This document shows, in pieces, positions 41,699-62,413 of a DNA stretch of 64,000 bases. The stretch comes from Acidimicrobiales bacterium (GTDB taxonomy: Bacteria > Actinomycetota > Acidimicrobiia > Acidimicrobiales > MedAcidi-G1), in the NCBI GenBank assembly GCA_014237715.1, contig JAAZZG010000006.1, positions 62,001 through 126,000 of the forward strand, written 5' to 3'. The translations under genes and the position numbers were made by a program. The notes beneath the pieces are model-generated. The model had not been told where the DNA came from, ran no database searches, and saw only the letters and a list, made by a program, of their open reading frames with translations. Numbering within the stretch: position 1 is the first letter of the stretch; the number at the start of each line of letters is the position of its first letter.

Positions 41699-42733
41699 AT
41701 GAAGCGATTTACCAGGGTGTTGGCATTGCTGCTGACATTCACGATGGTCGCCGCGGCCTGTGGCAGCGACGACGATGGGGATGCTGCGCCGGCTACTACG
41801 GCCGCGCCGGCTACTACGGCTGCGCCGGCTACTACGGCCGCGCCAGCTGCGCCGGCTGCGGATTCGTCGGATGCCATCAAGTTGCCGATCCACAACTGGT
41901 CGTCCCAGATCGCCGGCGTCTACGCCGTTGGTGCGATTCTGGAGGCAACGGGTAACTCGGTGGAGTACATCTCGGCGGATTCCACGCTGGTGTACACCTC
42001 GATGTGTGAGGGCGACATGGACCTGGTTCACGAGGTCTGGGAAGGCGCCTTTGGTGTGGCCTTCATGGAGCAGGTGGACAAGGGCTGTGTGATCGATGCC
42101 GCTACGCACGACGCCAAGACCCGTGAGGACTGGTGGTACCCGTCCTACGTTGAGGACGTCTGCCCCGGTCTCCCGGACTGGGAGGCGCTCAACGCCTGCG
42201 CCGAAATGTTCTCTACCCCCGATTCGGGTGGCAAGGGCCGCTTCCTCGGTGGTCCGGTGGACTGGTTGAAGGGTGACCAGGAGCGTGTCGAGGGCCTCGA
42301 GATGGACTTCATTGTCGAGAACGCCGGCACCGCTGGTGCCTTGTGGGCTGCACTCGATGCCGCTTCAGCGAACCAGGATCCGGTTGTGATCTTCAACTGG
42401 ACCCCGAACTTCGTCGAGGCCATGTACGACGGCAAGTTCATCGAGTTCCCGGAGTTCGCCGACGAGTGTCGTACCGACGCTTCGTGGGGCCTCAACCCCG
42501 AGACCACCCACGACTGTGGTAACCCGAAGGATGGGTACCTCAAGCTCGGTGTGTGGTCCGGCTTCCCGGACAAGTGGCCGAACGCCTACAAGGTGGTTCA
42601 GAATATGAACCTCACCAACCTGGACGTTGCCCAGTTGGCCATGTACGTCGACATCGACGGCATGGAGCCTGAGGACGCCGCTTCCAAGTGGCTGGCCGAC
42701 AACGCCGACCGGGTGAACGCCTGGGTTGGCTAA
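41699..42733 (+). CDS. tmoX: Substrate-binding lipoprotein of a TMAO/betaine-type ABC importer
   Basis: The 344-aa protein has a lipoprotein signal (MKRFTRVLALLLTFTMVAAACGS, lipidated Cys21), a Thr/Ala/Pro linker and an OpuAC-type binding domain, including VYTSMCEGDMDLVHEVWEGAF and DPVVIFNWTPNFVEA with the aromatic residues that cage quaternary or tertiary amines. With the ATPase, permease and Tmm downstream, TMAO is the most likely ligand (TmoX); betaine or choline remain possible. The ATG follows GAGGGG. A very strong hairpin ends the gene, which may raise its expression over the other subunits. Confidence 0.8.
   Translation: MKRFTRVLALLLTFTMVAAACGSDDDGDAAPATTAAPATTAAPATTAAPAAPAADSSDAIKLPIHNWSSQIAGVYAVGAILEATGNSVEYISADSTLVYTSMCEGDMDLVHEVWEGAFGVAFMEQVDKGCVIDAATHDAKTREDWWYPSYVEDVCPGLPDWEALNACAEMFSTPDSGGKGRFLGGPVDWLKGDQERVEGLEMDFIVENAGTAGALWAALDAASANQDPVVIFNWTPNFVEAMYDGKFIEFPEFADECRTDASWGLNPETTHDCGNPKDGYLKLGVWSGFPDKWPNAYKVVQNMNLTNLDVAQLAMYVDIDGMEPEDAASKWLADNADRVNAWVG
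41786..41839 (+). repeat. Three tandem 18-bp repeats in the lipoprotein linker
   Basis: GCGCCGGCTACTACGGC(C/T) is repeated three times and encodes APATTAAPATTAAPATTA, a flexible tether between the lipid anchor and the binding domain. Copy number is likely to vary among strains by slippage. Confidence 0.9.
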
Positions 42734-42768
42734 TCCACTCCGAACACCGTCTCTGACGGTGTCGTAAT

Positions 42769-42812
42769 GTCTGGCCGGTTGCCGGGGCCCACCCCCCGGC
42801 AACCGGCCAGAC
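42769..42812 (+). terminator. 19-bp perfect inverted repeat between binding protein and ATPase genes
   Basis: Left arm GTCTGGCCGGTTGCCGGGG (42769-42787) and its exact complement at 42794-42812 enclose a 6-nt loop (CCCACC). The hairpin is extremely stable but lacks a following T-run, so it is more likely a partial terminator or an RNA 3'-end stabiliser than a full stop. The ATPase gene begins 50 bp later. Confidence 0.7.
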
Positions 42813-42862
42813 GCCTTCTCGGCCTACATTCGGGCAACAACCAGACTTCGAGGATCATCCTG

Positions 42863-43873
42863 ATGACAGAAGCCAAGATCATCTGCCGAAACGTCTGGAA
42901 GTTGTATGGCCCGGAGCCGAAGAAGTTCCTGACCGCCCACGGGGGCAATCCGAGCGTGGCCGCCGTGAAGGAGGCCGGCTACATCCCGGCCGTACGGGAT
43001 GCCTCACTGGAGGTCCACGAGGGTGAGATCGTGGTCCTGATGGGCCTCAGTGGCTCTGGCAAGTCGACCCTGGTTCGCTGCCTATCGCGCCTCATCGACG
43101 CCACCGCCGGTCATGTGGAGTTCGACGGTCAAGACCTGCTCGCCACCTCAGACAAGGAGATGATCGAACTCCGCCGCCACAAGATGGGCATGGTGTTCCA
43201 GCACTTCGCTCTGTTCCCCCACCGCACGGTGGCTGAGAACGTGGCCTTCCCCCTCGAGGTCCAAGGGGTAGACCACGAGACCCGAATGGCCAAAGCACTC
43301 GAGATCATCGACCTGGTCGGCCTCCATGGTCGGGGCGACTACTACCCCCGCGAGCTCTCCGGTGGCCAGCAGCAACGGGTGGGCATCGGTCGTTCGCTGG
43401 CCGTGGAACCCGACGTATGGTTCCTTGACGAGCCGTTCTCGGCGTTGGATCCGTTGATCCGCCGGGAGATGCAGGACGAGTTCATGCGCCTCCAGTCCAC
43501 GTTGCAAAAGACGATCGTGTTCATCACACACGACTTCGACGAGGCCATCCGCCTCGCCGACCGGATCGCCATCATGCACGATGGAGTGATCGAACAGCTC
43601 GGCACCGCCGAAGAGCTCATCACCAATCCGGCTACCGACTATGTGGCCGCCTTCACCAAGGACGTTCCCCGCTCCAAGCTGCTACGGGTCCAGACCTTGA
43701 TGGGTCCGGCCGACGACGACGCCGAGGGCGAGGTGGACGGCGCCGCCAAGGTCGCCGCCGTCGCCCGCCAGATCCTGAATGCACCCGGCCCGGTCCGGGT
43801 CGTCGAGGACGGGCAGGTGGTCGGTTCAATCAACGGCACCCAGGTGGCCAACGCCCTCTTCGAGAACGACTGA
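42863..43873 (+). CDS. tmoW: ATP-binding protein of the TMAO/betaine-type ABC importer
   Basis: The 336-aa ATPase has Walker A GLSGSGKST, Q-loop MGMVFQHFALFPHRTV, signature LSGGQQQRVGIGRS, Walker B VWFLDEPFSALD and the switch His in FITHDFDEA, in the OpuAA/ProV-like subgroup. The C-terminal ~90 residues form a small regulatory-like domain, shorter than tandem CBS domains. I choose ATG 42863 after CGAGGATC. It is 11 bp before the permease gene. Confidence 0.9.
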   Translation: MTEAKIICRNVWKLYGPEPKKFLTAHGGNPSVAAVKEAGYIPAVRDASLEVHEGEIVVLMGLSGSGKSTLVRCLSRLIDATAGHVEFDGQDLLATSDKEMIELRRHKMGMVFQHFALFPHRTVAENVAFPLEVQGVDHETRMAKALEIIDLVGLHGRGDYYPRELSGGQQQRVGIGRSLAVEPDVWFLDEPFSALDPLIRREMQDEFMRLQSTLQKTIVFITHDFDEAIRLADRIAIMHDGVIEQLGTAEELITNPATDYVAAFTKDVPRSKLLRVQTLMGPADDDAEGEVDGAAKVAAVARQILNAPGPVRVVEDGQVVGSINGTQVANALFEND

Positions 43874-43884
43874 GCGCCCCCCCC

Positions 43885-46524
43885 ATGAGCGACTCTGACG
43901 ATGGGGCGGGCACGCCAGTGGCTGGTGCTACCGAGGTGATCGACGCTCCCGTTCCATCCCCCACTCCCATCGACACCAACGACGCCGCCTCGGCCGACGG
44001 CCCAGCCGCGGAGATGTCGGGACGGACTAAGACGGCCATCGCCCTCGGCCCGTTCCTCGCCATCTGGCTGCTCTGGTGGCGTCTGGGCGATGTGTTCCTC
44101 CACCGAGACCTCGAGGCCAAGGTCCCCGAGTGGCTCTACGAGGTACCGCGGTCGTTCACCGTCGACTGGTTCAACTTCGCCGGTCGCGAGCGCGGCCACA
44201 AGGCCTCGGGCTGGGTCAACACCTGGTTCGACCACCTCCGCTACGAGGAACTCTTCGACTTCACCCTCTCGTGGCACGCCAGCACGCTCTGGCTGATCCC
44301 CTGTCTGGCCCTCGTCGTCCTTGCCGGCTGGCGGGGCTGGACGCAACGCAGCGGCGTCTGGATGGCCCTGGCTTTCGGTATCGCCTGGCTGGGCTGGGGC
44401 TTCGACCTCTTCGACTGGGTCACGCTGGCCGCCACGCCGTGGGCCTTCGTGGTCGCCGCCGGCCTCGCCACCGTCGCCATCGCCCGATTCCGCAATGGCC
44501 GGGATATCGGCCTGACCGCTGCAATGGCGGCCATCGCCACCGTCGGCTGGGTCACCATCCAGGTCGGCAACGAGTCATTCAACCTCAAAGTTCTGTTCCG
44601 CCGAATCGCAGGATGGCTGGAGTTCCCACTGGACCTCAGTGAGGGCCTGCTCGTCAGCGGTCACGGCCCGTGGCACCTGTCGGACATGCCGTGGCTGCCC
44701 ATCTTCGCCATCCTGGTCGGCGGGTCAGCGTGGATGAGCATCCGTGGTCGCAGCGTGCGGTGGGCCGTCATCGGTGCCATCACCCTGTGGTTCGCCGTGG
44801 TCAGCCTCTACGAGCCGTGGCACATCCCGGCCCTCCCGTGGGTCGTCATCGCCAGCCTGTTCGGTATGGCCGGCTACCGACTGGGTGGCTGGCGCCTCGC
44901 CCTGCTGAGTGTGACGTTCATCGTCTACGCCGCCTTCATCGGCGACCCGCCACTTAAGGATGGTGCCGAGACCCGCTGGGATAAGACGATGATCACACTG
45001 TCCGCCGTGCTGGTGGCCGTCCCGATCGCCACCCTCATCGGCGGGTTCCTCGGGATGTGGGCGGCGAAGCGGCGCCGGGTCGAGCAGTTCCTCATCCCGA
45101 TCATGAACCTCACCCAGGCCTTGCCGCACTTCACCTTCCTCATTCCGGTCGGCGTGTTCATCGGCGTGTCCCACAAGGCCGGTGTGATCGCCACCATCGC
45201 CTACGCCATACCGCCCATGGCCCGCCTCACCATCCTCGGCGTGCAAGGGATCTCCAAAGAGGTCATCGAGGCGGGCATCATGTCGGGCTGCACACCGCGC
45301 CAAATGCTCTGGAAGGTCGAAATCCCGGCGGCCCGCCACGCCCTACTGGTCGGGATCAACCAGGTGGTCATGGAGTGCCTGGCCATGGTGGTCATCGCCT
45401 CCTTCGTGGGCACCGCCGGGCTCGGCCAGGACCTGTTGTTCCGCCTCACCGGCCTGAAAATCGGTGCCGGCATGGAGATCGGCATCGCCATCGTGGTCAT
45501 GGCCATCACGCTGGATCGTCTCAGCCAGGCGCTTGGCAGCTGGGGTCCCACGCATCACGCACCCGGCGCGTCGTTCCCCTCCCGCCACCCGTACCTCATC
45601 GCCTCGTCCATCGCGGTGGGCGGTGGCACGCTGCTGGCCAGCATCTGGGACTCAGCCCAGCGGGTTCCCAAGAATTGGATGTGGGGCCATGCCCAGTACT
45701 GGGAGGCGATCGTCGACTGGTCCAAGACCAACATCTACAGCTCGACCATCTGGTTCCGCGACCAGTTGGAATCGTTCATTCTCCTGCGCATGCGTGACGC
45801 TTTCGCCACCATCCCGTGGATCGCCGCGGTGATCCTGGTGTTCACCATCGGCTGGTTCGTCAACGGCCGGCGTCTGGCCATCATGTCGTCGTCCATGGTG
45901 GCCATCATCGCTCTCACCGGCTTCTGGCCCCAGGCCATGACCAGCTTTTACCAGCTCACCTTCGCCGTGTTCCTGGCCTCTGTCATCGGCGTGCCGTTCG
46001 GCATCTGGACCGCCGGTTCGGAGCGCCGCAACTCGGTCGTCCAGGTGCTCCTGGACGGACTCCAGACGTTCCCGTCGTTCGTCTACCTCTTGCCGGCCAT
46101 CATGTTCTTCTCGGTGTCGGAGACCGCAGTGATCTTCGCCGTGGTGCTGTCAGTCTCGGTGCCGGCCATCCGCTACACGATCTTTGGCGTCCGCAACGTG
46201 CCCGGCCACCTGATCGAGGCGGCCACCATGTCAGGCTGCTCCAAGCGGCAGACCCTCTGGAAGGTCAAGGTGCCGCTCGCCGTGCCCGAGATCATGCTGG
46301 GCATCAACCAGACCATCATGTTCGGTCTTTTCATGGTGATGATCGGCGGTCTCATCAAGACCAGCGGTCTGGCCCGTGACCTCATTGAAGCCCAGCCCAA
46401 CGTCGATTCCGGCCGGGCCATCATCGGGGGCCTGGCCGTAGCCTGCATCGGCATGGCCATCGACCTGATCATCTCCGAGTGGGCCGACAAGCGAAAGAAG
46501 CAGCTCGGCCTCATTCAGGCCTGA
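43885..46524 (+). CDS. tmoV: Double permease of the TMAO/betaine-type ABC importer
   Basis: The 879-aa protein has an acidic N-terminus, about ten membrane segments in the first 300 residues and then two OpuAB/ProW-type permease modules. Their coupling loops are [32 protein letters not shown] and [32 protein letters not shown], an obvious internal duplication. Fusion of both half-permeases in one chain matches TmoV-type TMAO importers. It ends 7 bp before tmm. Confidence 0.88.
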
Positions 46525-46531: not shown

Positions 46532-47902
46532 ATGACACGTGTCGCAGTGATCGGTGCCGGGCCCAGCGGTCTGGCCATGCTCCGGGCCTTCGCCTCGGCC
46601 GCTGAGCAGGGCGCCGAGGTGCCCGAGGTGATCTGCTTCGAGAAGCAGGATGACTGGGGCGGCCTCTGGAACTACACGTGGCGAACCGGCGTGGACGAGT
46701 ACGGCGAGTCGGTCCACGGCTCGATGTACCGCTACCTGTGGTCCAACGGCCCCAAGGAGTGCTTGGAGTTCGCCGACTACGGATTCGAGGAGCACTTCGG
46801 GAAGCCCATCGCCTCCTACCCGCCCCGTGAGGTCCTGTGGGACTACATCAAGGGCCGCGTCGACAAGAGCGGCGTACGTGACCAGATCCGGTTCCGGACC
46901 ACCGTGCGCGAGGTGGTCTACGACGCGACCGCTGGCGACGGGGCCGGGATGTTTACCGTCACCTCCCACGACCTGGATGGCGGCCACACGTCGTCCGAGA
47001 AGTTCGACCACGTCGTGGTCGCCTCAGGCCACTTCTCGGTGCCCAACGTGCCCCATTACCCGGGCTTCGAAAAGTTCCTGGGCCGCATCCTTCACGCCCA
47101 CGACTTCCGTGACGCCGTCGAGTTCGCCGGCCGGGACATCCTCATCGTGGGGGCCAGCTACTCGGCCGAGGACATCGGCTCGCAGTGCCACAAGTACGGC
47201 GCCAACCGCATCTACTGCACGTCACGGGCCGGCACCATGGGCTACGACTGGCCCGACAACTGGGAGGAACTTCCGATCCTCACTCACGTGGACGGCAACA
47301 CCGTCCACTTCTCCGACGGCCAGACCCGCGACGTGCATGCCATCATCCTGTGCACTGGGTACCAGCATCACTTCCCCTACCTGCCTGACGACCTTCGGCT
47401 CGAGACGGCCAACCGGCTGTGGGTGTCCGGCCTCTACAAGGGCGTGGTGTGGGAGCGGAACCCGAAGCTCTTCTACCTCGGGATGCAGGACCAGTACTAC
47501 ACATTCAACATGTTCGACGCGCAGGCCTGGTACGCCCGCGACGTCCTGATGGGACGCATCGATCTGCCGTCTGCCGAGGAGATGGCTGCCGATGGTGCTG
47601 CCTGGCTGGCCCGCGAGGAAGCACTTGAGACGGCCTACGAAGAAATCGACTTTCAGGGCGACTACACCCAGGTCCTGGTCGACGAGACCGACTACCCGGA
47701 CTTCAACATCCCGGCAGTGAACCAGATGTTTAAGGACTGGAAGGGCCACAAGAAGGCCGACATCATGGGCTACCGGAACCTCGGCTTCCCGTCGACGCTG
47801 ACCGGGACGGTGGCACCGCCCCACCACACGCCGTGGCTAGATGCGCTGGACGACTCGATGGCCACCTACCTGCTAGACGAGGCCCCGGAAGGCGGCGGCT
47901 GA
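46532..47902 (+). CDS. tmm: Trimethylamine monooxygenase
   Basis: The 456-aa flavin monooxygenase oxidises trimethylamine to trimethylamine N-oxide using FAD, NADPH and O2. It has the FAD motif [14 protein letters not shown], the Tmm-typical [45 protein letters not shown], the FMO signature [14 protein letters not shown] and the NADPH motif [14 protein letters not shown]. Length is normal for Tmm. It is the last gene of the tmoX-W-V-tmm operon, so one transcript covers uptake of TMAO and its formation from TMA. Confidence 0.92.
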
Positions 47903-48182: not shown

Positions 48183-49523
48183 CTAGCTCCAGGGATACGG
48201 CGAGTTGCTCTCGGGGTGCAGATTTCCCAAGGCGTACCGGCTGTACCGGAACGGCTCCAACAGGGCCTGCGTGTCGCCGCAGAGTTCCTTGGCCACCAGC
48301 GCGCCCAGCCCGACCATCTTGAAGCCGTGGTTCGAGTCGGCGATCACGTAGACGTTCTCGCAGAAGGTGTCCAGCACCGGGAAGCTGTCCGGGGTGAACG
48401 CCCCGATCCCACCGGATGGCACCTGGCTCATCAGGTGGGCCTTGCCCTCGAACCGTGACTGGCAGTGCGACAACGCAGCGGCCCACACGGCCCGGAAGTC
48501 TTCGCCGACCACGAAGTCCGGGCTGGCCGGGCCGTACGGATCGATGGCCACGTCACGCCACGGCTTGTCGACCGGGTAGGGCATATAGCCGCCCTGCACC
48601 CCACCGAAGTTGAAATCGGGTTTGTAGTACACGCCCCACTTGCCATCGACCAGCAGGTTCCCATCCTCGTCGTGCAGGGGTGCGTCGGCATCCACGTGGA
48701 CGACCGGCGGCATAGTGCCGTCGTTGTTCATCAGGTAGCCGGGATCGACGTCCAGCGTCCCCTCCTGGAGGGCCCAGAACTTCCATGTCGGCACGGTGTG
48801 GGTGGAATCGCCGGACACGATGTCGGTGGTGTCAGGCAGGTCCAGCATCTCCCACAACTTCGGCACCCACGGCCCGGCAGCGGCGATCACATGGTCGACG
48901 GCGACCATGCCCCGACTGGTCACCACGTGGGTCACGGCACCACCGTTGACGGCCAGTTCGGTGACCACTGTGTCGGACACGACGTTGACGCCTTCGGCCT
49001 CCACCTTGGCCAGCAGTCCGTTGACGGTGGCCATGTTGTGGGCGTAGCCGCCCTTCTTCTCGTGGAGCACGCTGCTGACCCCGGTGGCACGCCAGTCGTC
49101 GAAGATGCCCAGCATGTGGTCGCGGGTGGCGTCGACACCGTCGATGAACTCCGACTCGTACCCGATGGCCTTCTGCTGCTCGTGGATCGTGGCCACGTCC
49201 TCGCTCATCTCGTCATACGAGATCTGGAGGTAGCCCACCGGGTGATACTCGAAGGCCTCAGCGTTGGCGTCCCACACCTCGACCGAATGGGCCATCAGCT
49301 CGCGCATGGCGGGCTGGAAATAGTTGTTTCGAACCACGCCGCAGGCGATGCCCGACGGGCCGGCACCCGCCGCGGACTTCTCAATGATGACGATGTCGTC
49401 GCCACTGCCAGTGCCACGGGCCTTCAACTCACGGGCCAGGTGCCACGCAGTGGACAGGCCGTGGATACCGGCACCGATGATGCAGTACCGGGCCGACTCG
49501 GGAAGCTTGCCGGTGGTGCTCAT
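48183..49523 (-). CDS. DAO-family FAD oxidoreductase (SoxB/MgdA-like)
   Basis: The 446-aa flavoprotein has the FAD fold CIIGAGIHGLSTAWHLARELK, a second FAD contact VIEKSAAGAGPSGIACGVVRNNYFQP and the C-terminal FPVLDTFCENVYVIADSNHGFKMVGLGALVAKEL typical of sarcosine/dimethylglycine oxidase-type amine oxidases. It closes the leftward gmaS-mgs operon, where N-methylglutamate dehydrogenase would be expected. The usual partner subunits are absent, so it may act alone or with the 140-aa protein upstream. ATG 49523 follows CAGGAG. Confidence 0.85.
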   Translation of the reverse strand: MSTTGKLPESARYCIIGAGIHGLSTAWHLARELKARGTGSGDDIVIIEKSAAGAGPSGIACGVVRNNYFQPAMRELMAHSVEVWDANAEAFEYHPVGYLQISYDEMSEDVATIHEQQKAIGYESEFIDGVDATRDHMLGIFDDWRATGVSSVLHEKKGGYAHNMATVNGLLAKVEAEGVNVVSDTVVTELAVNGGAVTHVVTSRGMVAVDHVIAAAGPWVPKLWEMLDLPDTTDIVSGDSTHTVPTWKFWALQEGTLDVDPGYLMNNDGTMPPVVHVDADAPLHDEDGNLLVDGKWGVYYKPDFNFGGVQGGYMPYPVDKPWRDVAIDPYGPASPDFVVGEDFRAVWAAALSHCQSRFEGKAHLMSQVPSGGIGAFTPDSFPVLDTFCENVYVIADSNHGFKMVGLGALVAKELCGDTQALLEPFRYSRYALGNLHPESNSPYPWS

Positions 49524-50082: not shown

Positions 50083-51525
50083 TCAGTTCCTCCCGCTCTC
50101 TGCAAGCTGCTTGGCCATCATGTCCTTCATCTCCTGGAGCGCACGCTCCTCGCTGACGCCCGGGATGTAGGTGGTCCCGGCCAGCGGCACCTTGGCCATG
50201 GCCGACGCCTCATGGGTGAGAGCGGCCAGATCCTCGGGCTCCAGGCTGTGGATGTTGGTCTTGCCGCATGCACGGGCCAGCAACTGGACCTCCATGGTCA
50301 ACGTATGGAGGTAGTTGTAGACCCGCAGGGCGGCCTCCTCGACGTCAAGGCGTGCCCGCAGCTCGACGTCCTGGGTGGCCACACCCACCGGACAGCGACC
50401 GGTGTGGCAGTGGTAGCACTCGCCGGCCGGCACTCCGATAGTGCCCTCATAGTCAGTGACACCCTCTATGTGCTTGTTGCAGTTCAGGGCCATCAGGGCA
50501 GCGGTACCGAGTGCCACGGCCTTGGCACCCAGAGCCAGACACTTGGCCACGTCACCGCCGTTGCGGATCCCGCCGGCCACCACGAGGTCGACCTCGTCGG
50601 CCAAGCCCACGTCCTCGAGCGCCCGTCGGGCCTCGGGGATGGCGGCCATCAACGGGATGCCCGTCTCCTCGGTCGCGAGGTGTGGACCGGCACCGGTACC
50701 TCCTTCGGCGCCATCGAGGTAGATCGAGTCAGGACCGCACTTGGCGGCCATCCGAACGTCGTCGTACACCCGTGACGAACCCAGCTTCAACTGGATCGGC
50801 ACCTGGTAGCTGGTGGCTTCGCGGATCTCCTGGATCTTCAGCGACAAGTCGTCAGGTCCGATCCAGTCGGGGTGGCGGGCCGGCGAGCGCTGGTCGATGC
50901 CAGCGGGCAGCGAGCGCATCTCAGCCACCTGCTCGGTGACCTTCTGGCCCATGAGGTGTCCACCAAGGCCGACCTTGCAACCCTGCCCGATGAAGAACTC
51001 AATGGCGTCGGCCAGCATCAGGTGGTGCGGGTTGAAGCCGTAGCGGCTCTGGATGACCTGGTAGAACCACTTCGTCGACAGGTCCCGCTCGGGCGGAATC
51101 ATGCCGCCCTCACCGGAGCACGTCGCCGTGCCGGCCATCGAGGCGCCCTTGGCGAGTGCCGATTTGGCCTCGATGGACAACGCACCGAAGCTCATGCCGG
51201 TGATGTAGACGGGAATGTCCAACTCCAACGGGTTGGCGGCAAACCGGCCGCCGATGACCGTCTTGGTCTCGCACTTCTCGCGATAGCCCTCGATCACGAA
51301 GCGGGTGAGCGTTCCGGGAAGGAACACCAGCTCGTCCCAGTGGGGGATCTTCTTGAACAGTGAGAATCCCCGCATCCGATAGCGGCCCAGTTCTGCCTTC
51401 ACGTGGATGTCGTTGATGACCTCCGGCGTGAAGATCTTGCTCTTGCCGATGACGTCGGTGGCTGCGTTGGTGTCGACCTTGGGGGTGTCGACTCCCTTGA
51501 TGTCGTTTGCTTCTGGCATCGTCAT
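50083..51525 (-). CDS. mgsC: FMN-dependent glutamate-synthase-like subunit (MgsC/GlxD type)
   Basis: The 480-aa protein matches the FMN and Fe-S part of glutamate synthase large subunit. It has GMSFGALSIEAKSALAKGASMAGTATCSGEGGM, QLKLGSSRVYDDVRMAAKCGPDSIYLDGAEGGTGAGP, DLVVAGGIRNGGDVAKCLALGAKAVALGTAAL and the iron-sulphur cysteines in GECYHCHTGRCPVG. With the GXGXG and amidotransferase subunits upstream it forms a three-subunit enzyme. The glutamine-synthetase-like gene at the head of the operon points to N-methylglutamate synthase. Six bp separate it from the GXGXG gene. Confidence 0.85.
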   Translation of the reverse strand: MTMPEANDIKGVDTPKVDTNAATDVIGKSKIFTPEVINDIHVKAELGRYRMRGFSLFKKIPHWDELVFLPGTLTRFVIEGYREKCETKTVIGGRFAANPLELDIPVYITGMSFGALSIEAKSALAKGASMAGTATCSGEGGMIPPERDLSTKWFYQVIQSRYGFNPHHLMLADAIEFFIGQGCKVGLGGHLMGQKVTEQVAEMRSLPAGIDQRSPARHPDWIGPDDLSLKIQEIREATSYQVPIQLKLGSSRVYDDVRMAAKCGPDSIYLDGAEGGTGAGPHLATEETGIPLMAAIPEARRALEDVGLADEVDLVVAGGIRNGGDVAKCLALGAKAVALGTAALMALNCNKHIEGVTDYEGTIGVPAGECYHCHTGRCPVGVATQDVELRARLDVEEAALRVYNYLHTLTMEVQLLARACGKTNIHSLEPEDLAALTHEASAMAKVPLAGTTYIPGVSEERALQEMKDMMAKQLAESGRN

Positions 51526-51531: not shown

Positions 51532-52323
51532 CTAGAGCACGAGCTTGCGCTCGGAGGGCTCCAGCGCGTCGTAGTTGTGGAGCACCTTGCCGCACTCGAA
51601 CTTCTTCAGGTCCGGCGGGGTGCCGAGGTCGTAGATCTCGAACTTGCGGTTGATGAACTCGATGTCGTCGTCGTTCATCTCACCAGGCACACAGTCCACG
51701 CCGAGTGAAGCGATCTTGCCGCCGACGTAGATCACGCCGTCGTACATCGAGTCGCCCAGGCCATCGTTGGCGTCACCACAGATGATTTGACGACCACGCT
51801 GCATCATGAAGCCGGTGTTGATGCCGGCGCTGCCCAGGGCGATGATCGTTCCGCCCTTCTGGTCGATTCCGGTACGCGCACCCACGTTGCCCTTGATGAC
51901 CAGGTCTCCACCACGGAGGGCGGCGCCGGTCAGGGAACCGGCCGGCCCCTCGACCACTACCGACCCAGACATCATGTTCTCGGCCAGCGCCCAGCCGACC
52001 CGACCGTTGATCTGGACCTCCGGCCCGTCGATCAGTCCGCAGGCATACCAGCCCGGGCTGCCCTCAAACGTCAGGTTGCAGCGCTTGAGGATGCCCACAC
52101 CGAGCGAATGCTTGGAGCCCGGGTTGACGATGGTCACTTCGTTTACGCCCTCGTCGTAGACGATGCGCTTGAGCTCCAAATTGATCTTCCTGGTGGTCAG
52201 GTCGGTGGCGTCGATCACCGCCGTGTCACCGTCGATAACCGCGGTCATGGGCGGCTCGGGATCCGGCTCGACGAGTCCGCGGGCGTCGTAGACGACCCCG
52301 CTCTTGGTGTTCAGACCTGCCAC
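51532..52323 (-). CDS. mgsB: Glutamate-synthase GXGXG-domain subunit (MgsB/GlxC type)
   Basis: The 263-aa protein is a stand-alone version of the right-handed beta-helix domain that ends glutamate synthase. Its strands repeat around VQINGRVGWALAENMMSGSVVVEGPAGSLTGAALRGGDLVIKGNVGARTGIDQKGGTIIALGSAGINTGF. It is structural and holds the other two subunits together. The start is GTG 52323, overlapping the end of the amidotransferase gene by 13 bases. Confidence 0.85.
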   Translation of the reverse strand: MAGLNTKSGVVYDARGLVEPDPEPPMTAVIDGDTAVIDATDLTTRKINLELKRIVYDEGVNEVTIVNPGSKHSLGVGILKRCNLTFEGSPGWYACGLIDGPEVQINGRVGWALAENMMSGSVVVEGPAGSLTGAALRGGDLVIKGNVGARTGIDQKGGTIIALGSAGINTGFMMQRGRQIICGDANDGLGDSMYDGVIYVGGKIASLGVDCVPGEMNDDDIEFINRKFEIYDLGTPPDLKKFECGKVLHNYDALEPSERKLVL

Positions 52324-53243: not shown

Positions 53244-53265
53244 GGTGTCTCCCTGCTTCTCAGGT

Positions 53266-53382
53266 CTTGAACGTCGCTTATCTGGTGTCTGGCAGTAGCT
53301 GCCAGACCATGAGAGGTTGGTCTCAAACGTCGTGTATCTGGTGTCTCGTGTCTGGTCTCTGGCAGTAACTGCCAGGCGATGA
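53266..53382 (-). repeat. Duplicated hairpin element between gmaS and mgsA
   Basis: Two related copies each contain TATCTGGTGTCT and a perfect 7-bp hairpin: CTGGCAGTAGCTGCCAG at 53289-53305 and CTGGCAGTAACTGCCAG at 53359-53375. Each is followed by ATGAG on the plus strand. The second copy has a 12-bp insertion before the hairpin. Transcription crosses the gap from gmaS to mgsA, so they may tune transcript processing or attenuation. Confidence 0.7.
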
Positions 53383-53392
53383 GCGGTGGGCG

Positions 53393-54802
53393 CTACGGCA
53401 GGATGTCGAGGTATTCCTCGACATCCCAGTCGGTGACCGTAGCCATGAAGCGCTCCCACTCATCGCGCTTGTAGTGCTCGAACACCCGGTACATGTCACC
53501 CGGAAGGGCACTCTTGACTACCTCATCCTGGTCGAGAGCCACGAGTGCCTCGCCGAGGTTCATCGGAATCTTCTTGACGTCCTTGCCCTCGTCCATGGCC
53601 TCGTAGATGTTCCGCTCCTCGGGCGGACCAGGATCGAGGTCATTGTCTAGACCGTCCTCCATGGCCTTGATGAGTGCGGCGAAGGTCAGGTACGGGTTCA
53701 CCGCCGAGTCAACCGAGCGGTACTCGAACCGCCCGGGGGCGCTGATGCGCAGGGCGGTCGTACGGTTCTGGAATCCCCAGTCAGCGAAGACCGGTGCCCA
53801 AAAGCCGGTGTCCCAGAGTCGTCGGTACGAGTTCACGGTCGGTGAGCCCAGGCAGGTCAGGGCGTTCAGGTGCTTCATGATCCCACCGATGGCCTGCATG
53901 CCGATAGCACCAGGAATCTGCGGATTGTCTCCTTCGGGCATGAACTTGTTCTCGCCACCCTCGTCGGGCTCTCCGGTCCACAGGGAGATGTTGTGGTGGC
54001 AGCCGTTGGCCGACACGCCCACAAACGGCTTGGGCATGAAGCACGGGAAGGCGCCCATCTCGCGACCGACCTGCTTGCAGATCTGTCGGTAGGTGGTGAG
54101 CCGGTCGGCCGTCAGATCGGCCCGGTCGAAGTTGAAGTTGAGCTCCAACTGGCCCGGAGCGTCCTCGTGGTCACCCTGGATCATGTCTAGGCCCATGGCC
54201 TCGCCGTACTCGACCACCCGGTGGATGAGCGGCTGGAGCTCGGCGAACTGGTCGATGTGGTAGCAGTTCGGCTTGGTGAGACCCTCGACGGTGGGCTTGC
54301 CGTTCTCATCGGCCTTGAGCCACATCATCTCGGGCTCGCAACCGGCCCTCAGGTGGAGGCCGGTCTTGGCCTCAAACTCCTTGTGGATGCGATGGAGGTT
54401 GCCGCGACAGTCCGAGGTGAGGAATGCGCCGGGGTCGACCTCTTCTTCCCGGCCCCGGAACAGGGTGCAGAAGACGCGGGCCGTCTTGGAGTCCCAGGGG
54501 AGCTTGCAAAAGGTGTCGGTCTCGGCGACGCCCACCAGCTCACGTGACTCGGGTCCGTAGCCGATGTACTGGCCGTGGCGGTCGACGAACAGGTTGGCCG
54601 TCGAGCCGTAGACCAACTGGAAACCCTTATTGGCAATGGTGGCGAAGTGCTTGGCTGGAATGCCCTTGCCCATGATCCGGCCAGTCACCGACACGAACTG
54701 GCAGTAGAGGTACTGGATCTCCTCAACCTCGATGCGCCTCTGGATCTCGGCGACCTGCTCGGCACGCCCCGGCGCCTCGATGAACTCCTGGATATCGGTC
54801 AT
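53393..54802 (-). CDS. gmaS: Type III glutamine-synthetase-like enzyme, probably gamma-glutamylmethylamide synthetase
   Basis: The 469-aa enzyme has the glutamine-synthetase fold with HLRAGCEPEMMWL for one metal site, DHEDAPGQLELNFNFDRADLTADRL, GVSANGCHHNISLW and TTALRISAPGRFEYRSVDSAVNPYLTFAALIKA. This is the GlnT/GmaS group; GmaS ligates methylamine to glutamate with ATP. The mgs-like genes directly downstream favour GmaS. ATG 54802 is better spaced from AGGGGG than ATG 54808. It is divergent from tdm across 277 bp. Confidence 0.82.
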   Translation of the reverse strand: MTDIQEFIEAPGRAEQVAEIQRRIEVEEIQYLYCQFVSVTGRIMGKGIPAKHFATIANKGFQLVYGSTANLFVDRHGQYIGYGPESRELVGVAETDTFCKLPWDSKTARVFCTLFRGREEEVDPGAFLTSDCRGNLHRIHKEFEAKTGLHLRAGCEPEMMWLKADENGKPTVEGLTKPNCYHIDQFAELQPLIHRVVEYGEAMGLDMIQGDHEDAPGQLELNFNFDRADLTADRLTTYRQICKQVGREMGAFPCFMPKPFVGVSANGCHHNISLWTGEPDEGGENKFMPEGDNPQIPGAIGMQAIGGIMKHLNALTCLGSPTVNSYRRLWDTGFWAPVFADWGFQNRTTALRISAPGRFEYRSVDSAVNPYLTFAALIKAMEDGLDNDLDPGPPEERNIYEAMDEGKDVKKIPMNLGEALVALDQDEVVKSALPGDMYRVFEHYKRDEWERFMATVTDWDVEEYLDILP

Positions 54803-55085: not shown

Positions 55086-57443
55086 ATGACGATCACGGTG
55101 TCGGAGAGCCCCCGCCTCCTCATGCCGGGCATGGCCGACTTCGAGCCCGGAATCGAGCGCTACCGAGTGACCGGCGGAGCGGTCACCGCGGTGCTCCTGG
55201 GTGCCGGCGACCGATTGCAGGTCATTGATCCTGAGGGTTGCCAGCCCGTTGAGGTGGCCGCCTTCGACCGCGACGGTCACTCCGATCCGGGCCTACTGGG
55301 CGACCTCCCCCACGGTGCGTCGGGTGCCCCGGCGACGGGCATCGCAGCAATCCTGGCCTCCGACCAGCACGACGCCCGGCGGGTCGCCGACGCGCTGTCC
55401 GGCAAGGGCATCGACCTCGCTGCGGCCACTGCCGTCCACCTGTTCGCTCCCGACTCCCCTGCCGGCCTGGAAGCTTGGCTGACCGCAACGACCGACCTGG
55501 TCTGTGTCATCGGTGTGACCGGCGGGAAGATGCTCCCCCACGAGCAGAACCCGCCGACCGACATCATCACCTTCGTCCACCGCACCGCCCCCCCGGCCCC
55601 GGGCCTCGAGGTGCTCCCCTCGCCGCTGGCCGACCAGAACCAGGACCTCCGAATCAGCGCGGCCACCGCCCGGACCTACGAGGTGAAGGCTGGCGAGTTC
55701 ATCCAGGTCATCGACGTCGAGGGTCGGGAGTGCTCCGACTTCCAGTGCTTCGACGCCGCCCGCCTGGACGGTGGAGTGGAGGCCGCGCTGGACGCCACCA
55801 TCACCCGCAGCCTCATGGGTGCCAGCTACCCCATGCCCGGCCTGTTCGCCAAGTACTACTCGCTGGACTTCCAACCCATGGTGGAGGTCGTCCACGACAC
55901 GGTGGGTCGCCACGACACCTTCAACACGGCCTGCAACCCCAAGTACTACGAGGACATGGGCTACCCGGGCCACGTCAACTGCAGCGAAAACTTCAACCAG
56001 GTCCTGGCCCCCTACAACATCGCTCCCCGCCGCGGCTGGGAGGCCATCAACTTCTTCTACAACACCAACCTGGACGACGCGAATCAGCTCTACTTTGAGG
56101 AACCGTGGTCCCGACCCGGCGACTACGTACTCTTGAAAGCGCTGACCGATCTGGTCTGCGTCTCGTCGGCCTGCCCATGCGACATCGACGCCGCCAACGG
56201 CTGGCAACCCACCGACATCCACGTCCGGGTCTACCCGGCGACCAACACCTTCAAGAAAGCCACGGCCTTCCGCATGTCAACCGATGCCGACCCCGAACTA
56301 ACCAAGGAGACGGGATTCCACGCCCGAACCTCGGAGCTCACTCGCAACTTCACGGAGTACGCGGGCTACTGGTTGGCCAACAGCTACACCAACCACGGCG
56401 CCCTCGACGAGTACTGGGCCACCCGCCAGAAGGCGGGAATCATCGACCTGTCGCCACTACGTAAATACGAGGTCGTGGGCCCCGATGCCGAGCTTCTCCT
56501 CCAGACCTGCGTGACCCGCAACGTCCGCAAGCTGGCCGTCGGCCAGGTCGTCTACACGGCCATGTGCTACGACACCGGAGGCATGATCGATGACGGAACG
56601 ATCTACCGCCTCGCCCAGGACAATTTCCGATGGATCGGCGGCAGTGACTCCAGTGGGCTGTGGCTCCGGAAGCAAGCTCAGGAAATGGGTCTTCACGTCT
56701 GGGTACGCGACGCCACCGACCAGTTGCACAACGTGCAGGTCCAGGGACCACTCAGTCGGGAGATCCTCTCAGAGGTGATCTGGACCCGACCGGACCAGGC
56801 CTCGATCGACGAGTTGGGTTGGTTCCGCCTCTCGACGGCTCGTATCGGCGATGAGCACGGCATACCGATCGTGGTGTCACGCACCGGCTACACCGGTGAG
56901 TTGGGATTCGAGGTGTTCTGCCACCCATCGGACGCTCCGGAGGTGTGGGACGCGATCTGGGCCGTCGGCCACCCAAAGGGCCTTACACCCCTGGGACTCG
57001 AGGCACTCGACATGCTCCGCATCGAGGCCGGTCTGATCTTCGCTGGCTCCGAGTTCAACGACCAGACCACTCCGCTGGAGGCCGGTATCGGCTTCACCGT
57101 GCCCATCAAGACCAAGGAGGACGACTTCATCGGTCGTGACGCCCTGGTTCGCGGCAAGGAACACCCCCAGCGCACCTTGGTCGGCTTGGAACTCTCAGGC
57201 GACGAGCCAGCCGGCCCCGGCAACCCGATCATGATCGCCCGCCAGCAGGTAGGCACGGTCACCAGCGGGACCCGCTCCCCCATTCTGAGAAAGAACATCG
57301 CTCTCGGCTGGATGGCCATCGAACACGCCGAGATTGGGACCGAGGTCGAGGTGGGCCAGATGGACGGCCACCAGAAACGCCTCCCGGCCACCGTGGTGCG
57401 CTTTCCGCACTATGACCCCGACAAGGAACGCGTACGTAGCTAG
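55086..57443 (+). CDS. tdm: Trimethylamine-N-oxide demethylase
   Basis: The 785-aa two-domain enzyme cleaves TMAO to dimethylamine and formaldehyde. The N-terminal DUF1989 half has the paired motifs RLQVIDPEGCQPVEVAAF and FIQVIDVEGRECSDFQCF. It also has conserved cysteines Cys283 (TACNPKYYEDMGYPGHVNCS, with Cys299), Cys363 and Cys365 (SSACPCDID), of which a subset should bind the catalytic zinc. From ~410 a GcvT-like tetrahydrofolate-binding domain follows (GIIDLSPLRKYEVVGPDAELLLQ, GYTGELGFEVF), which can capture formaldehyde. It shares its CTAG stop with the convergent flavoprotein gene. Confidence 0.93.
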   Translation: MTITVSESPRLLMPGMADFEPGIERYRVTGGAVTAVLLGAGDRLQVIDPEGCQPVEVAAFDRDGHSDPGLLGDLPHGASGAPATGIAAILASDQHDARRVADALSGKGIDLAAATAVHLFAPDSPAGLEAWLTATTDLVCVIGVTGGKMLPHEQNPPTDIITFVHRTAPPAPGLEVLPSPLADQNQDLRISAATARTYEVKAGEFIQVIDVEGRECSDFQCFDAARLDGGVEAALDATITRSLMGASYPMPGLFAKYYSLDFQPMVEVVHDTVGRHDTFNTACNPKYYEDMGYPGHVNCSENFNQVLAPYNIAPRRGWEAINFFYNTNLDDANQLYFEEPWSRPGDYVLLKALTDLVCVSSACPCDIDAANGWQPTDIHVRVYPATNTFKKATAFRMSTDADPELTKETGFHARTSELTRNFTEYAGYWLANSYTNHGALDEYWATRQKAGIIDLSPLRKYEVVGPDAELLLQTCVTRNVRKLAVGQVVYTAMCYDTGGMIDDGTIYRLAQDNFRWIGGSDSSGLWLRKQAQEMGLHVWVRDATDQLHNVQVQGPLSREILSEVIWTRPDQASIDELGWFRLSTARIGDEHGIPIVVSRTGYTGELGFEVFCHPSDAPEVWDAIWAVGHPKGLTPLGLEALDMLRIEAGLIFAGSEFNDQTTPLEAGIGFTVPIKTKEDDFIGRDALVRGKEHPQRTLVGLELSGDEPAGPGNPIMIARQQVGTVTSGTRSPILRKNIALGWMAIEHAEIGTEVEVGQMDGHQKRLPATVVRFPHYDPDKERVRS

Positions 57444-58654
57444 TCCCGGAACCGGGCCAGGAACAATTCCCGGTCGGCCTCGGTCGGCCAGTTCCGTCCC
57501 AGGAACAGCCCTGCGGCGAGCTCTCCGAGGGCCGGTGCACACTTGGCGGCGAAGCCGTTTGCCCCGATGGCGCAGGCAACCCGGTGGGACCCGTCGTCCA
57601 CCCAGTCGATGAACGGGAAACCGCTGGGCGTGTAGGTGGTGACGCACGACGTGGTCCTGCGCCCTATGCCACGGAGCCCGGGAAGCAACCCTTCCAGTAT
57701 CTGCTCAAGCCTCACGGCCACTACAGGGTCACCGTCGGTCCGGAACCAAGCAACCAACTCGGCTGCCGTAGCCCGCACATGGTTGTCCTGTGGTGCTCCC
57801 ACCTTGAGAATGTGGCGGCTTCCCGAACCAGGAGGGTGCCCGACAAGATGGTCACGCACGGGAGGCGTCAGGTAGAAGTCGTCAACTGGGTCAGGGAACT
57901 TGCCGATGATGCTGGGCATCCCGGCCAACCTGTCGACCTCGGCAGCATCCAGGTGGACAAGTAACTGGGTGTGCAACGCGTACTCCAGGTCCAAGCCGGC
58001 CGCTGGAGACTTGCCGTACCCGGAGAATGCACCGGTAGCCAGCAGCACGCGGTCGGCGGCGATGACGCCCACGTCGGTGGACACCGAGACCGGGCCGACC
58101 GCTCCCGCGAGGACCGAGTCAACAAGGGCGACCACGTGGGTGGCCCCAGCAGCCACAGCGGCGGCGGTCTCGGAGGCTACGTGGGCCCGGGGGTCCACAC
58201 TGCCCGCCGGTGGTGGCTCCCACAGGGTCTCGCACCCATCAGGGAGCGAGAGGAACCCCATGCTCTCAATTGCTTCGGCTGCACCACGCCGTTGGCAACA
58301 CAGCCCATACCGGACGTCGGCTTCGGCCAGCAGGTCGATACCGGCAGGCGAGTCCACCCAGAGGTGGCCCACAGGGTTGACGGGGTCGATGCCGGTACGG
58401 GCTGCCACTTCCGCGAACTGGCTGACCGACCGATAGCCCAGCCACGCCCGGACCGGATCCGGATCGATGATGCGACTCACCCGGGCGACGTCATGGTGAC
58501 TGCCGAAGACGCCCCCATGAGTCTGTCGATCGGTCGGTTCGGCCTGACCGACGAGCACCACGTCGCAGCCGGCGTCGGCTAGGTGTCTGGCCGCCGATGC
58601 ACCCAGCATGCCGGCACCAACCACCGCCACCTCACAGCGACGCTCCCCCGTCAC
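57440..58654 (-). CDS. Monomeric sarcosine-oxidase-like FAD enzyme
   Basis: The 404-aa flavoprotein has the FAD fold VAVVGAGMLGASAARHLADAGCDV and the C-terminal block TSCVTTYTPSGFPFIDW...IGANGFAAKCAPALGELAAGLFLG. By alignment in mind with Bacillus monomeric sarcosine oxidase, the Cys in TSCVTTYT sits where FAD is covalently attached. It should demethylate a secondary or tertiary amine such as sarcosine, dimethylglycine or N-methylglutamate. The start is GTG 58654 after GGAGAG. Its TAG and the tdm TAG overlap in one CTAG. Confidence 0.83.
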   Translation of the reverse strand: MTGERRCEVAVVGAGMLGASAARHLADAGCDVVLVGQAEPTDRQTHGGVFGSHHDVARVSRIIDPDPVRAWLGYRSVSQFAEVAARTGIDPVNPVGHLWVDSPAGIDLLAEADVRYGLCCQRRGAAEAIESMGFLSLPDGCETLWEPPPAGSVDPRAHVASETAAAVAAGATHVVALVDSVLAGAVGPVSVSTDVGVIAADRVLLATGAFSGYGKSPAAGLDLEYALHTQLLVHLDAAEVDRLAGMPSIIGKFPDPVDDFYLTPPVRDHLVGHPPGSGSRHILKVGAPQDNHVRATAAELVAWFRTDGDPVVAVRLEQILEGLLPGLRGIGRRTTSCVTTYTPSGFPFIDWVDDGSHRVACAIGANGFAAKCAPALGELAAGLFLGRNWPTEADRELFLARFRD

Positions 58655-61050: not shown

Positions 61051-61105
61051 TCGTCCTCCCCTTGACTGATGGCGCGCCTTACGGCACGGGTCTGACATCG
61101 GGCCG

Positions 61106-61142: not shown

Positions 61143-61250
61143 TCACACCGACCACTGGTATGACGACGGTCACAGTAACAGTGGACGAACACCCGTGCTG
61201 GGAAAAAATTTCCCTCAGAGGAAAGTGAAAGTAGAAGGGATTCCGGCGTA

Positions 61251-61574
61251 TCAGTAGTCGACGTGGACCGCTATGACGTCGCCGGTGCCAGCGTCCACCT
61301 CGACCGCTGTCCTCCGTTCGAACCCGTTCTCGCCGTCAGCAGCCGGGATCCAGAACGTGACCCCCCAAACGGCCCGTGGCGGAAAGCCCTTTTTGCCAAG
61401 TTCGGCATTGGTCTCCTCGGGGACGAAGTCGATCTCAGCACGAGCGATACGAACCGCTTCATCCCCTGAAACGGAAGTTCGACCGAGGCACCCGCCCAGG
61501 TAGCCGCCCACCACGACCACGAACAAGACGATGAACATCTTGGCTGGCAGGGACCACTGCCTAATGGGGGTCAC
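61251..61574 (-). CDS. Small membrane-anchored or lipoprotein-like hypothetical protein
   Basis: The 107-aa protein has an N-terminal hydrophobic segment ending in a possible lipobox (MFIVLFVVVVGGYLGGCLG). A PepSY-like pattern follows: GDEAVRIARAEIDFVP ... AVWGVTFWIPAADGENGFERRTAVEVDAGTGDVIAVHVDY. PepSY-type domains often inhibit proteases or sense ligands. Start and stop overlap the previous gene as ATGA. It precedes amt on the same strand by 244 bp. Confidence 0.68.
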   Translation of the reverse strand: MTPIRQWSLPAKMFIVLFVVVVGGYLGGCLGRTSVSGDEAVRIARAEIDFVPEETNAELGKKGFPPRAVWGVTFWIPAADGENGFERRTAVEVDAGTGDVIAVHVDY

Positions 61575-61783
61575 CGTTCTCTCCGTTCGTTGACTGCAAC
61601 CCAGGCCCTAAGAGCCAGGTAGCCGAGAACATGGGTCATACCGACCACTGAGATCCACCAAAGGGTTAAGCGTCGGTCAAAGCCCTGCTGACGCGCCTCC
61701 CAGAACGTCAGCCCGATGGCGCCAAGCAGTAGCAGTACGAGAAAACCGCTCTGGTGGGCCCCGAGGAGCCAGAGAATGCCCAT
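61571..61783 (-). CDS. Small two- to three-span membrane protein
   Basis: The 70-aa product has membrane spans SGFLVLLLLGAIGLTFWEA and LTLWWISVVGMTHVLGYLALRAW and a charged tail (VNERRER). It sits 15 bp after the cupin-XRE regulator and overlaps the next gene by four bases, so the three form one operon. No family is recognised. Confidence 0.68.
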   Translation of the reverse strand: MGILWLLGAHQSGFLVLLLLGAIGLTFWEARQQGFDRRLTLWWISVVGMTHVLGYLALRAWVAVNERRER

Positions 61784-61798
61784 CGTCTCGACCCGGGC

Positions 61799-62413
61799 CT
61801 ACTCGGCCGCCGGAAAGACCTTGACCGACATGAAACGCACCGGCAGCTCCATCAGGCTGACCGGACCGTGGGCCACCTCGCCGTGGATCTGGATGGTGTC
61901 GCCAGTGCTCAGCACGTAGTTCTTCGGCCCGTAGCCATACTCCATCGAGCCCTCCAGCATGTGCAGGAACTCCACACCCTCGTGCTGGAACAGCGGGAAC
62001 ACCTCGTTGGCGGACTCCAAGGTGACCATCATCGGCTCGATGATTCGGGTCGGACCCCGCAGCGAACCGAGGTCCTCGTAGCGGTGGCCGTCGCGAGTGC
62101 CCTCGTGGAGGATCTCCATGCGGTCGTCGGACCGCACGATCACCACGTCGTGCTCCTCGTCCAGGCCACGGAAGAACGCCGTGATCGGCACCCGTGCGGC
62201 ATGGGCCAGTCGGGTCAGCGTCGAGAGGCTGGGCGACGTCTGGCCATGTTCGATCTTGGACACCATGCCGAGCGATATCTCCGCCACCTCGGCGAATTGG
62301 GCCATGGTCAGCCCGAGCACACGGCGTGCGTCACGCACCCGCTCACCCACCACCCGGCACACGTCGTCTGAGGAGAAGCCGTGCCCGGCAGCCTCGTCGT
62401 CCTGCTGGATCAT
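61799..62413 (-). CDS. XRE-family transcriptional regulator with C-terminal cupin domain
   Basis: The 204-aa protein has a helix-turn-helix at ~18-75 (RVRDARRVLGLTMAQFAEVAEISLGMVSKIEHGQTSPSLSTLTRLAHAARVP) and a cupin at ~125-200 (EGVEFLHMLEGSMEYGYGPKNYVLSTGDTIQIHGEVAHGP). In this family the cupin senses a small ligand such as an amine or amino acid derivative. Its position at the end of the methylamine island makes it the best candidate regulator of gmaS, tdm and amt. ATG 62413 is chosen; the longer frame upstream has no conservation. Confidence 0.88.
   Translation of the reverse strand: MIQQDDEAAGHGFSSDDVCRVVGERVRDARRVLGLTMAQFAEVAEISLGMVSKIEHGQTSPSLSTLTRLAHAARVPITAFFRGLDEEHDVVIVRSDDRMEILHEGTRDGHRYEDLGSLRGPTRIIEPMMVTLESANEVFPLFQHEGVEFLHMLEGSMEYGYGPKNYVLSTGDTIQIHGEVAHGPVSLMELPVRFMSVKVFPAAE

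Follow-up and report, generated by a model that had tools for sequence, protein, structure and literature searches.

Positions 41699–62413 of the window, the 64,000-nucleotide stretch of an Acidimicrobiales bacterium analysed here as a whole, hold an island of genes for methylated-amine metabolism. Within it lies a cassette of six genes (fla446, gmaS2, mgs2A, mgs2B, mgs2C and p140), which we propose to be a dimethylamine branch of the N-methylglutamate pathway. Scans of the window's open reading frames (ORFs) against Pfam and NCBIfam recovered, at or near the positions first assigned to them, the genes that an earlier note, made from the letters alone, had listed here, and its description of the region as a methylated-amine island is borne out. 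The host assembly comprises 2.33 Mb in 75 contigs and is 92.6% complete. The features, in window positions, are as follows.

41699–46524, + strand: ABC importer, presumably for trimethylamine N-oxide (TMAO); PF04069, TIGR01186 above cut-off, two BPD_transp_1 stretches
41699–42733, + strand: importer substrate-binding protein; OpuAC (PF04069), 142 bits
42767–43873, + strand: importer ATPase
43885–46524, + strand: importer permease, a fused double; single protein of 879 amino acids with two BPD_transp_1 stretches
46532–47902, + strand: tmm, trimethylamine monooxygenase; NF058570, 793 bits against a cut-off of 675
48183–49523, − strand: fla446, single-chain DAO flavoprotein of 446 amino acids; PF01266, 134.6 bits
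49658–50080, − strand: p140, conserved cassette protein of 140 amino acids; no convincing Pfam family, serves as cassette marker
50083–51525, − strand: mgs2C, FMN/Fe-S glutamate-synthase-type (GltB-like) subunit; PF01645, 311 bits
51532–52323, − strand: mgs2B, GXGXG subunit; PF01493
about 52311–53243, − strand: mgs2A, class II amidotransferase subunit with N-terminal Cys (MCGIAG); PF13522/PF13537
53393–54808, − strand: gmaS2, glutamine-synthetase-like ligase; TIGR03105, 315.1 bits, below the cut-off of 469.6
55086–57443, + strand: tdm, TMAO demethylase, a source of dimethylamine (DMA); NF053776, 1187.5 bits against a cut-off of 1100
57440–58654, − strand: dao404, second DAO flavoprotein, 404 amino acids, beside tdm; PF01266, 92 bits
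59630–61006, − strand: amt, ammonium transporter family; PF00909, 199.8 bits
61799–about 62413, − strand: helix-turn-helix (HTH)-cupin regulator; PF01381, PF07883

The start of mgs2A was re-set within a longer ORF (52311–53459), and the importer is read as specific for TMAO because it adjoins tmm.

A scan with fla446 returned 380 relatives, and the locus counts that follow rest on the best 80 named loci, those nearest to the window being from Acidimicrobiales or Acidimicrobiia metagenome-assembled genomes (MAGs). To find the other cassette genes, we probed with proteins of the window plus one p140 of proteobacterial origin, genes in the other loci being called by codon usage. All six genes are present in 34 of the 80 loci and some of them in 19, many of the latter cut by contig ends; the other 27 fla446 loci have none of the five remaining genes in the stretch examined. 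The order in Acidimicrobiia is gmaS2-mgs2A-mgs2B-mgs2C-p140-fla446, and fla446 comes first in the proteobacterial loci that have the gene run. We found tmm in 21 and tdm in 18 of the 80 loci, with a cassette gene also in 19 and 17 of these, respectively. Linkage and co-occurrence thus uphold the earlier suggestion that the 446- and 140-residue proteins belong with the gmaS/mgs-type genes. The cassette is present in Actinomycetota, Alphaproteobacteria and Gammaproteobacteria, so the notion of an actinobacterial version of the pathway was abandoned, as was that of a system confined to actinobacteria. One of its carriers is a cultured, named strain, Methyloceanibacter marginalis R-67177 (L087). 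Plasmid records yielded no relative of fla446 at an E limit of 1e-40 and none of p140 at 1e-3. In one genome of 1.2 Mb and 33% GC (G305, locus L131), canonical GmaS, amt, p140, mgs2CBA, gmaS2, fla446, tdm and a tmoX-like gene lie within 14 kb, and in two others (L130 and L132; 1.4 Mb, 34–36% GC) the cassette adjoins canonical gmaS and mgs genes.

Judged from their sequences, GmaS2 and Mgs2ABC are paralogues separate from canonical GmaS and MgsABC. GmaS2 falls below the TIGR03105 cut-off of 469.6 bits both in the window and at L088 (303.9 bits), where the canonical GmaS scores 657.2; the gene entered as gmaS/glnT in the earlier note is glutamine synthetase (GS)-like but not a canonical GmaS. 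In Pfam, the class II amidotransferase, GXGXG and FMN synthase subunits of an MgsABC-type enzyme are all present. The MCGIAG start is found in 39 of 42 Mgs2A homologues, the other three being two genes cut by a contig end and one short gene call, and the Fe-S Cys motif of Mgs2C is kept in 39 of 39. On a tree, Mgs2C (48 rows) and canonical MgsC (20 rows) are split by one branch with a single change, although each label was assigned from a sequence's identity with the window protein, which favours such a split. The branch is thus non-canonical, as had been claimed, in the sense that its ligase and synthase are paralogues of the canonical set. Canonical and cassette genes share one stretch in G112, G115, G155 and G415. 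That of G115 (L113) has SoxA/D/B-type genes, mgsABC, gmaS, amt, p140, mgs2CBA, gmaS2 and fla446; that of G112 (L116, same genome as L084) has p140, then all four mgd subunits, mgsABC and gmaS; and in G064 (L213) canonical gmaS-mgs adjoins gmaS2.

The report on RhGmaS places Tyr147, Gln175, Asp177, Glu179, Glu186, Asn188 and Lys30 of the neighbour in its methylamine pocket, and gives the flap residue as Trp300, where GS has Glu (PMC7948447). We set the pocket numbering on the GPYQND motif of Celeribacter GmaS, aligned with 7cql, and read the flap from sequence blocks. All seven pocket residues and the flap Trp are identical in 8 of 8 GmaS2 proteins, which deviate in having Ile or Val for Tyr174 and a flap five residues shorter. 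A GS-like paralogue on contig C22 of the window's own genome differs at five of the seven sites and has the flap Glu; the canonical-type GmaS proteins of L125 and of contig C33 have Ala at 175. As the pocket and the flap Trp are kept and Tyr174 is altered, the sequence of GmaS2 suggests an alkylamine ligase, its pocket modified, and not a glutamine synthetase; the modification may favour dimethylamine.

PF11927 (DmmC-type) could be used as a marker of Dmm because it occupies the DmmC position in five of the five dmm loci examined. At L219 (Celeribacter neptunius) and L217 (G203) it closes a GcvT-DmmA-reductase-PF11927 run, with DmmA named by NCBIfam and Pfam; at each of L215, L216 and L218 all four dmm genes are matched, and DmmA, B and C stand in tandem. 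There was no PF11927 match in the host assembly. In a set of 76 genomes, mostly chosen for holding fla446 and including 52 counted as cassette genomes, the raw tally is three (G129, G074 and G086). G129 carries a true dmmDABC, and the locus of its fla446 has none of the other cassette genes; G086 is the only one of the 52 cassette genomes with any PF11927 match. The matches in G074 and G086, which were kept in the tally, were rejected as Dmm, being 24–28% identical to DmmC with no DmmA/B match nearby.

The distribution was then profiled in 318 Alphaproteobacteria, the class of G105, the Rhodospirillaceae MAG that contains L075. Cut-offs were E ≤1e-20 for PF11927, ≤1e-180 for strong canonical GmaS and ≤1e-150 for Tdm; genomes of at least 90% completeness were requested, though the draw gave no completeness values, and the GmaS search scored at most five candidates per genome, so that absences are less sure than presences. 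p140 was found in 32 genomes, PF11927 in 41 and strong GmaS in 60. Strong GmaS accompanies 29 of the 32 genomes with p140 as against 31 of the 286 without it (Fisher 4e-21). PF11927 occurs in none of the 32 p140-positive genomes (Fisher 0.02 over all 318), and within the 60 GmaS-positive genomes in 0 of 29 with p140 compared with 15 of 31 without (Fisher 7e-6). Tdm was sought in 63 genomes, namely these 60 plus the three p140-positive genomes lacking strong GmaS, and was present in 23 of 32 with p140 and 5 of 31 without (Fisher 1e-5); in 12 of the 23, no more than 10 kb separates it from p140. The 28 Tdm-positive genomes divide into 23 with p140, four with PF11927 and a single one (G413) with neither marker, the two never occurring together (Fisher 2.4e-4); three of these Tdm matches (G168 and G305, both with p140, and G413) score below the NF053776 cut-off. 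An rpoB tree was built for 57 of the 63 genomes (four lacked an rpoB match, G374 yielded only fragments and G175 was too short to be kept). The cassette label changes 10 times on it and the Dmm label nine times, at least five of each forced by well-supported branches, so that the mutual exclusion of cassette and Dmm does not reflect one split, though the genomes are not independent.

The flavoprotein itself resembles amino-acid demethylases. The best NCBIfam match of fla446 is soxB, at 71 bits far below its cut-off, and among its matches in the PDB are chains of sarcosine oxidase beta and of dimethylglycine oxidase. The Pfam scan gave no GCV_T match, so fla446 lacks the fusion of a DAO to a GCV_T folate domain that marks DMGO and DMGDH. 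The lysine of an HG(Y/F)KM motif is kept in 78 of 78 fla446 proteins and aligns with a carboxylate-binding lysine of sarcosine oxidase beta. In the Alphaproteobacteria, a fla446 orthologue (≥656 bits) is present in 29 of 32 genomes with p140 and in 2 of 31 without, two more of the latter having relatives at 415–434 bits; it does not always adjoin the other cassette genes (e.g. in G438).

Further orthologues lie in loci of betaine type. One (L104) is beside matches to GbcA and GbcB, both below their cut-offs; four (L077, L082, L089, L097) are beside homocysteine S-methyltransferase genes, which we read as BHMT-like from the one scanned (L082), and three of these four also have SoxB/A-type genes. 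At L062, L065 and L085, fla446 is accompanied by SoxB/A-type genes alone in the stretch. The L085 subunits score above the sarcosine-oxidase cut-offs, yet the beta subunit clusters with those encoded next to canonical mgs, so that Sox and Mgd are indistinguishable there. The step linking betaine demethylation to sarcosine oxidase converts dimethylglycine to sarcosine. The presence of fla446 in betaine-type loci fits this step, and by symmetry it would convert N,N-dimethylglutamate to N-methylglutamate ahead of Mgd; in either role fla446 would not be redundant. By this analogy we propose that fla446 is an N,N-dimethyl-amino-acid (N,N-dimethylglutamate) demethylase; its orthologues at the five betaine-type loci named above may be single-domain dimethylglycine demethylases unlike DMGDH or DgcA. 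For p140, no convincing Pfam match was obtained with any of 23 aligned homologues (best E 0.007) and no PDB match better than E 0.24. The idea that it is a SoxG- or SoxD-like subunit gained no support, no profile match being found with four sequences on the Sox side.

Taken together, these results suggest, with a probability of about 0.6, that the cassette is a dimethylamine branch of the N-methylglutamate pathway. TMAO would be imported, or made from trimethylamine by Tmm, and split by Tdm into DMA and formaldehyde. GmaS2 would ligate DMA to glutamate, giving gamma-glutamyldimethylamide, from which Mgs2ABC, perhaps with p140, would form N,N-dimethylglutamate with 2-oxoglutarate. One methyl group would then be removed by fla446, yielding N-methylglutamate, and the second by an Mgd/Sox-type heterotetramer encoded on contig C74 of this genome (or by dao404, or again by fla446), yielding glutamate. 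We favour dimethylamine because GmaS2 and Mgs2 are non-canonical and the cassette nevertheless accompanies the methylamine pathway; because the cassette is complementary to Dmm and linked to Tdm, a source of DMA; and because GmaS2 keeps the amine pocket and fla446 has orthologues in betaine-type loci. Gene content, conservation, paralogy, linkage and the distribution of Dmm and Tdm are observed; from these we infer every substrate and product of the route. We also lean, a little beyond even odds, towards regarding the cassette as a new Dmm-independent route and the main DMA route of TMAO-demethylase bacteria without DmmABC, including small AT-rich Alphaproteobacteria (1.2–1.4 Mb) and Acidimicrobiia.

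The earlier note had observed correctly that the island lacks Mgd and Dmm genes, none being found among the island ORFs scanned, and had suggested that the flavoprotein takes the place of MgdABCD. As a general rule this was rejected, since the cassette coexists with mgd-type and canonical mgsABC-gmaS genes: mgd-type genes follow it at L066, L067 and L084 and share its stretch in G112 and G115. Those at the first three loci are of SoxB, SoxD and SoxA type, and the stretches break off after them (L066 was checked by Pfam and NCBIfam). With such genes already beside the cassette, there would be little for a second N-methylglutamate dehydrogenase to do. The window's own genome has one SoxD; it lies on C74, where MgdA-, MgdC- and SoxG-like genes of its operon complete the four subunits (L120). 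The note had allowed that complete dmm and mgd operons elsewhere in the genome would overturn its reading; the search of the whole genome turned up this heterotetramer and no PF11927, which goes part of the way. The C74 beta subunit is sister to, and 78.6% identical with, that of G083 (Acidimicrobiales), which adjoins canonical gmaS-mgsABC (L125). The same beta-subunit lineage lies beside fla446 in five other loci (66–72%), two of them with homocysteine S-methyltransferase genes. The C74 enzyme may therefore serve sarcosine, N-methylglutamate or both, and, a GbcA-like Rieske gene (30%) lying beside it (L120:10192–11199), the operon may serve betaine degradation too. Mgd has also been reported to act in homarine catabolism (PMC13390433), so mgd-type genes need not mean methylamine use; a homarine operon was considered as an explanation and set aside, no paper with such an operon being found by title.

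SoxD was found in 70 of the 76 genomes scanned and in 46 of the 52 cassette genomes, that of the window included. The six without it (G009, G016, G020, G081, G087 and G114) are all cassette genomes, some of them drafts of 66–93% completeness, and there the single-chain enzyme could carry out the N-methylglutamate step. The state of the canonical genes in the window's genome bears on the same question. Contig C33 has a GmaS-like GS above the TIGR03105 cut-off (577.7 bits), with no mgs match within the 30 kb around it (L112, G000). The one full MgsC in the genome is that of the window, the other matches being one of 32% in a long GltB-like frame and a short one of 25 bits. In the congeners G010, G011 and G012 a GmaS-like gene is followed by mgsC and mgsB; mgsA was seen directly in G010, being matched in L205 alone among the three loci. 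In eight further members of the genus or family, the window's own genome among them (G000, G001, G002, G006, G009, G019, G028 and G037), no mgs gene was found in the stretch examined. The GmaS-like gene thus stands without mgs neighbours at L112, L200, L202, L203 and L206–L209 and with them at L201, L204 and L205; in the former kin mgsABC has seemingly been lost and gmaS retained.

If the cassette were instead a different methylamine pathway, with fla446 (possibly aided by p140) as a single-chain N-methylglutamate dehydrogenase replacing MgdABCD, the SoxD-free genomes and the solitary full MgsC would be accounted for. This reading also agrees with the distant relationship of fla446 to SoxB, with the island's want of mgd and with the methylamine pocket kept in GmaS2. 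We consider it unlikely given the mgd-type genes that follow the cassette or share its stretch, the strong canonical GmaS that accompanies nearly all p140-positive Alphaproteobacteria and the SoxD found in most cassette genomes. The function that the cassette supplies is more likely that of Dmm than that of Mgd. Less probable still, and in our view quite doubtful, is an oxidation of free dimethylamine to methylamine by fla446, with GmaS2 and Mgs2 taking the methylamine. This would explain the exclusion of Dmm as well as two Actinophytocola loci (L063 and L064) at which fla446 lies close to tmm and the stretch has none of the other cassette genes; GmaS2 and Mgs2 would then, however, duplicate the canonical GmaS and Mgs that adjoin them in several genomes, and fla446 resembles amino-acid N-demethylases, keeps the HGxK lysine and has orthologues in betaine-type loci free of cassette genes. 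That the cassette serves another amine (e.g. ethylamine or another N-methylated compound), with the Tdm link and Dmm exclusion as lineage effects, would suit the p140-positive genomes without Tdm and the relatedness of genomes, which is not fully removed, but is improbable, as Tdm linkage recurs in Acidimicrobiia and Alphaproteobacteria and the cassette and Dmm labels interleave on the rpoB tree.

Several observations nevertheless weigh against the dimethylamine branch. In the six SoxD-free cassette genomes its last step is unexplained unless the assemblies are incomplete, and in Actinophytocola direct action of fla446 on DMA would serve equally as an explanation. Tdm is absent from 9 of the 32 p140-positive genomes and a fla446 orthologue from three; the genomes are related, and the Fisher p-values overstate. 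Of the known enzymes acting on DMA, the searches covered Dmm. Cassette-linked and other fla446 proteins form no separate clades (15 changes, some labels blurred by short contigs), so the substrate cannot be read from the tree. The proposed route leaves p140 and dao404 without explanation. Lastly, as the window genome has a single full MgsC and a GmaS-like gene on C33, its Mgs2 may serve methylamine too.

The remaining genes of the island can be described briefly. dao404 is convergent to tdm and sarcosine-oxidase-like; its homologues in islands of near relatives lie near tdm (L026, L029, L032, L038) or beside fla446 (L034, L036, L037, L040), and the proteobacterial loci scanned gave no match. 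N-methylglutamate oxidation and sarcosine oxidation are candidate roles for it. Other Acidimicrobiia have a different second DAO of about 395 residues (cluster c10; L044, L046–L050, L052, L053, L057, L058 and L060), adjoining fla446 or tmm in most. amt is near the cassette in other loci too, and other genomes have relatives of the HTH-cupin regulator close to the cassette or to canonical gmaS. A 179-residue protein without a Pfam match (cluster c17; L076:12949–13488 and relatives) is encoded close to p140 or amt at several of the proteobacterial loci with the cassette. At the right-hand border of the island, a cytochrome P450 gene (62531–63871) has its start inside the divergent regulator ORF, taken in its long form. 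This gene is a second ORF of 446 amino acids, so the "446-aa flavoprotein" of the earlier note holds only for 48183–49523 on the − strand.

dmmDABC is reported to be absent from multiple marine bacteria, all SAR11 representatives included, although tmm, tdm and gmaS occur throughout SAR11; the resulting bottleneck at dimethylamine could explain DMA-derived aerosol (PMC5520151). If the proposed branch is real, a second, unrecognized DMA route, found in Acidimicrobiia as well as in 32 of the 318 Alphaproteobacteria sampled, would alter the accounting of that bottleneck, and could explain how bacteria with Tdm and without Dmm dispose of climate-relevant dimethylamine. p140 and gmaS2 would then be marker genes for metagenomes; as a caution, gmaS2 and mgs2 may be mistaken for methylamine genes. 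Among the titles listed by searches of the open-licence literature, none described this cassette, and none of those on dimethylglutamate or glutamyldimethylamide concerned methylated amines.

Among known systems, the DAO demethylases (DMGO/DMGDH and heterotetrameric or monomeric sarcosine oxidase) share with fla446 the DAO flavoprotein family (PF01266), but fla446 is single-domain, has no fused folate (GCV_T) domain and is without SoxDAG partners in the island. The SAR11 TMAO locus SAR11_1303/1304 resembles tdm-dao404 in gene placement, with an aminomethyltransferase gene next to one of monomeric sarcosine-oxidase type (PMC3160333). With the N-methylglutamate pathway (GmaS, MgsABC, MgdABCD), hypothesized in methylotrophic Mycobacterium with gma, mgsA-C and mgdA-D (PMC5023230), the cassette has in common an amide ligase, a three-part glutamate-synthase-like enzyme and a flavoprotein demethylase, and the pocket residues that bind the amine in RhGmaS (PMC7948447) are conserved in GmaS2. 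It differs in its separate GmaS2 and Mgs2ABC paralogues, the extra p140 and the single-chain flavoprotein, and it often coexists with the canonical set. DmmDABC is the system for whose step the cassette is proposed, from the Tdm product to the level of methylamine or N-methylglutamate, and the two are complementary in distribution, yet they have no genes in common and the cassette is without a haem monooxygenase. Dmm is an oxygen-dependent enzyme. The proposed route, by comparison, would bypass free methylamine and would presumably need no O2 at its ligation and synthase steps.

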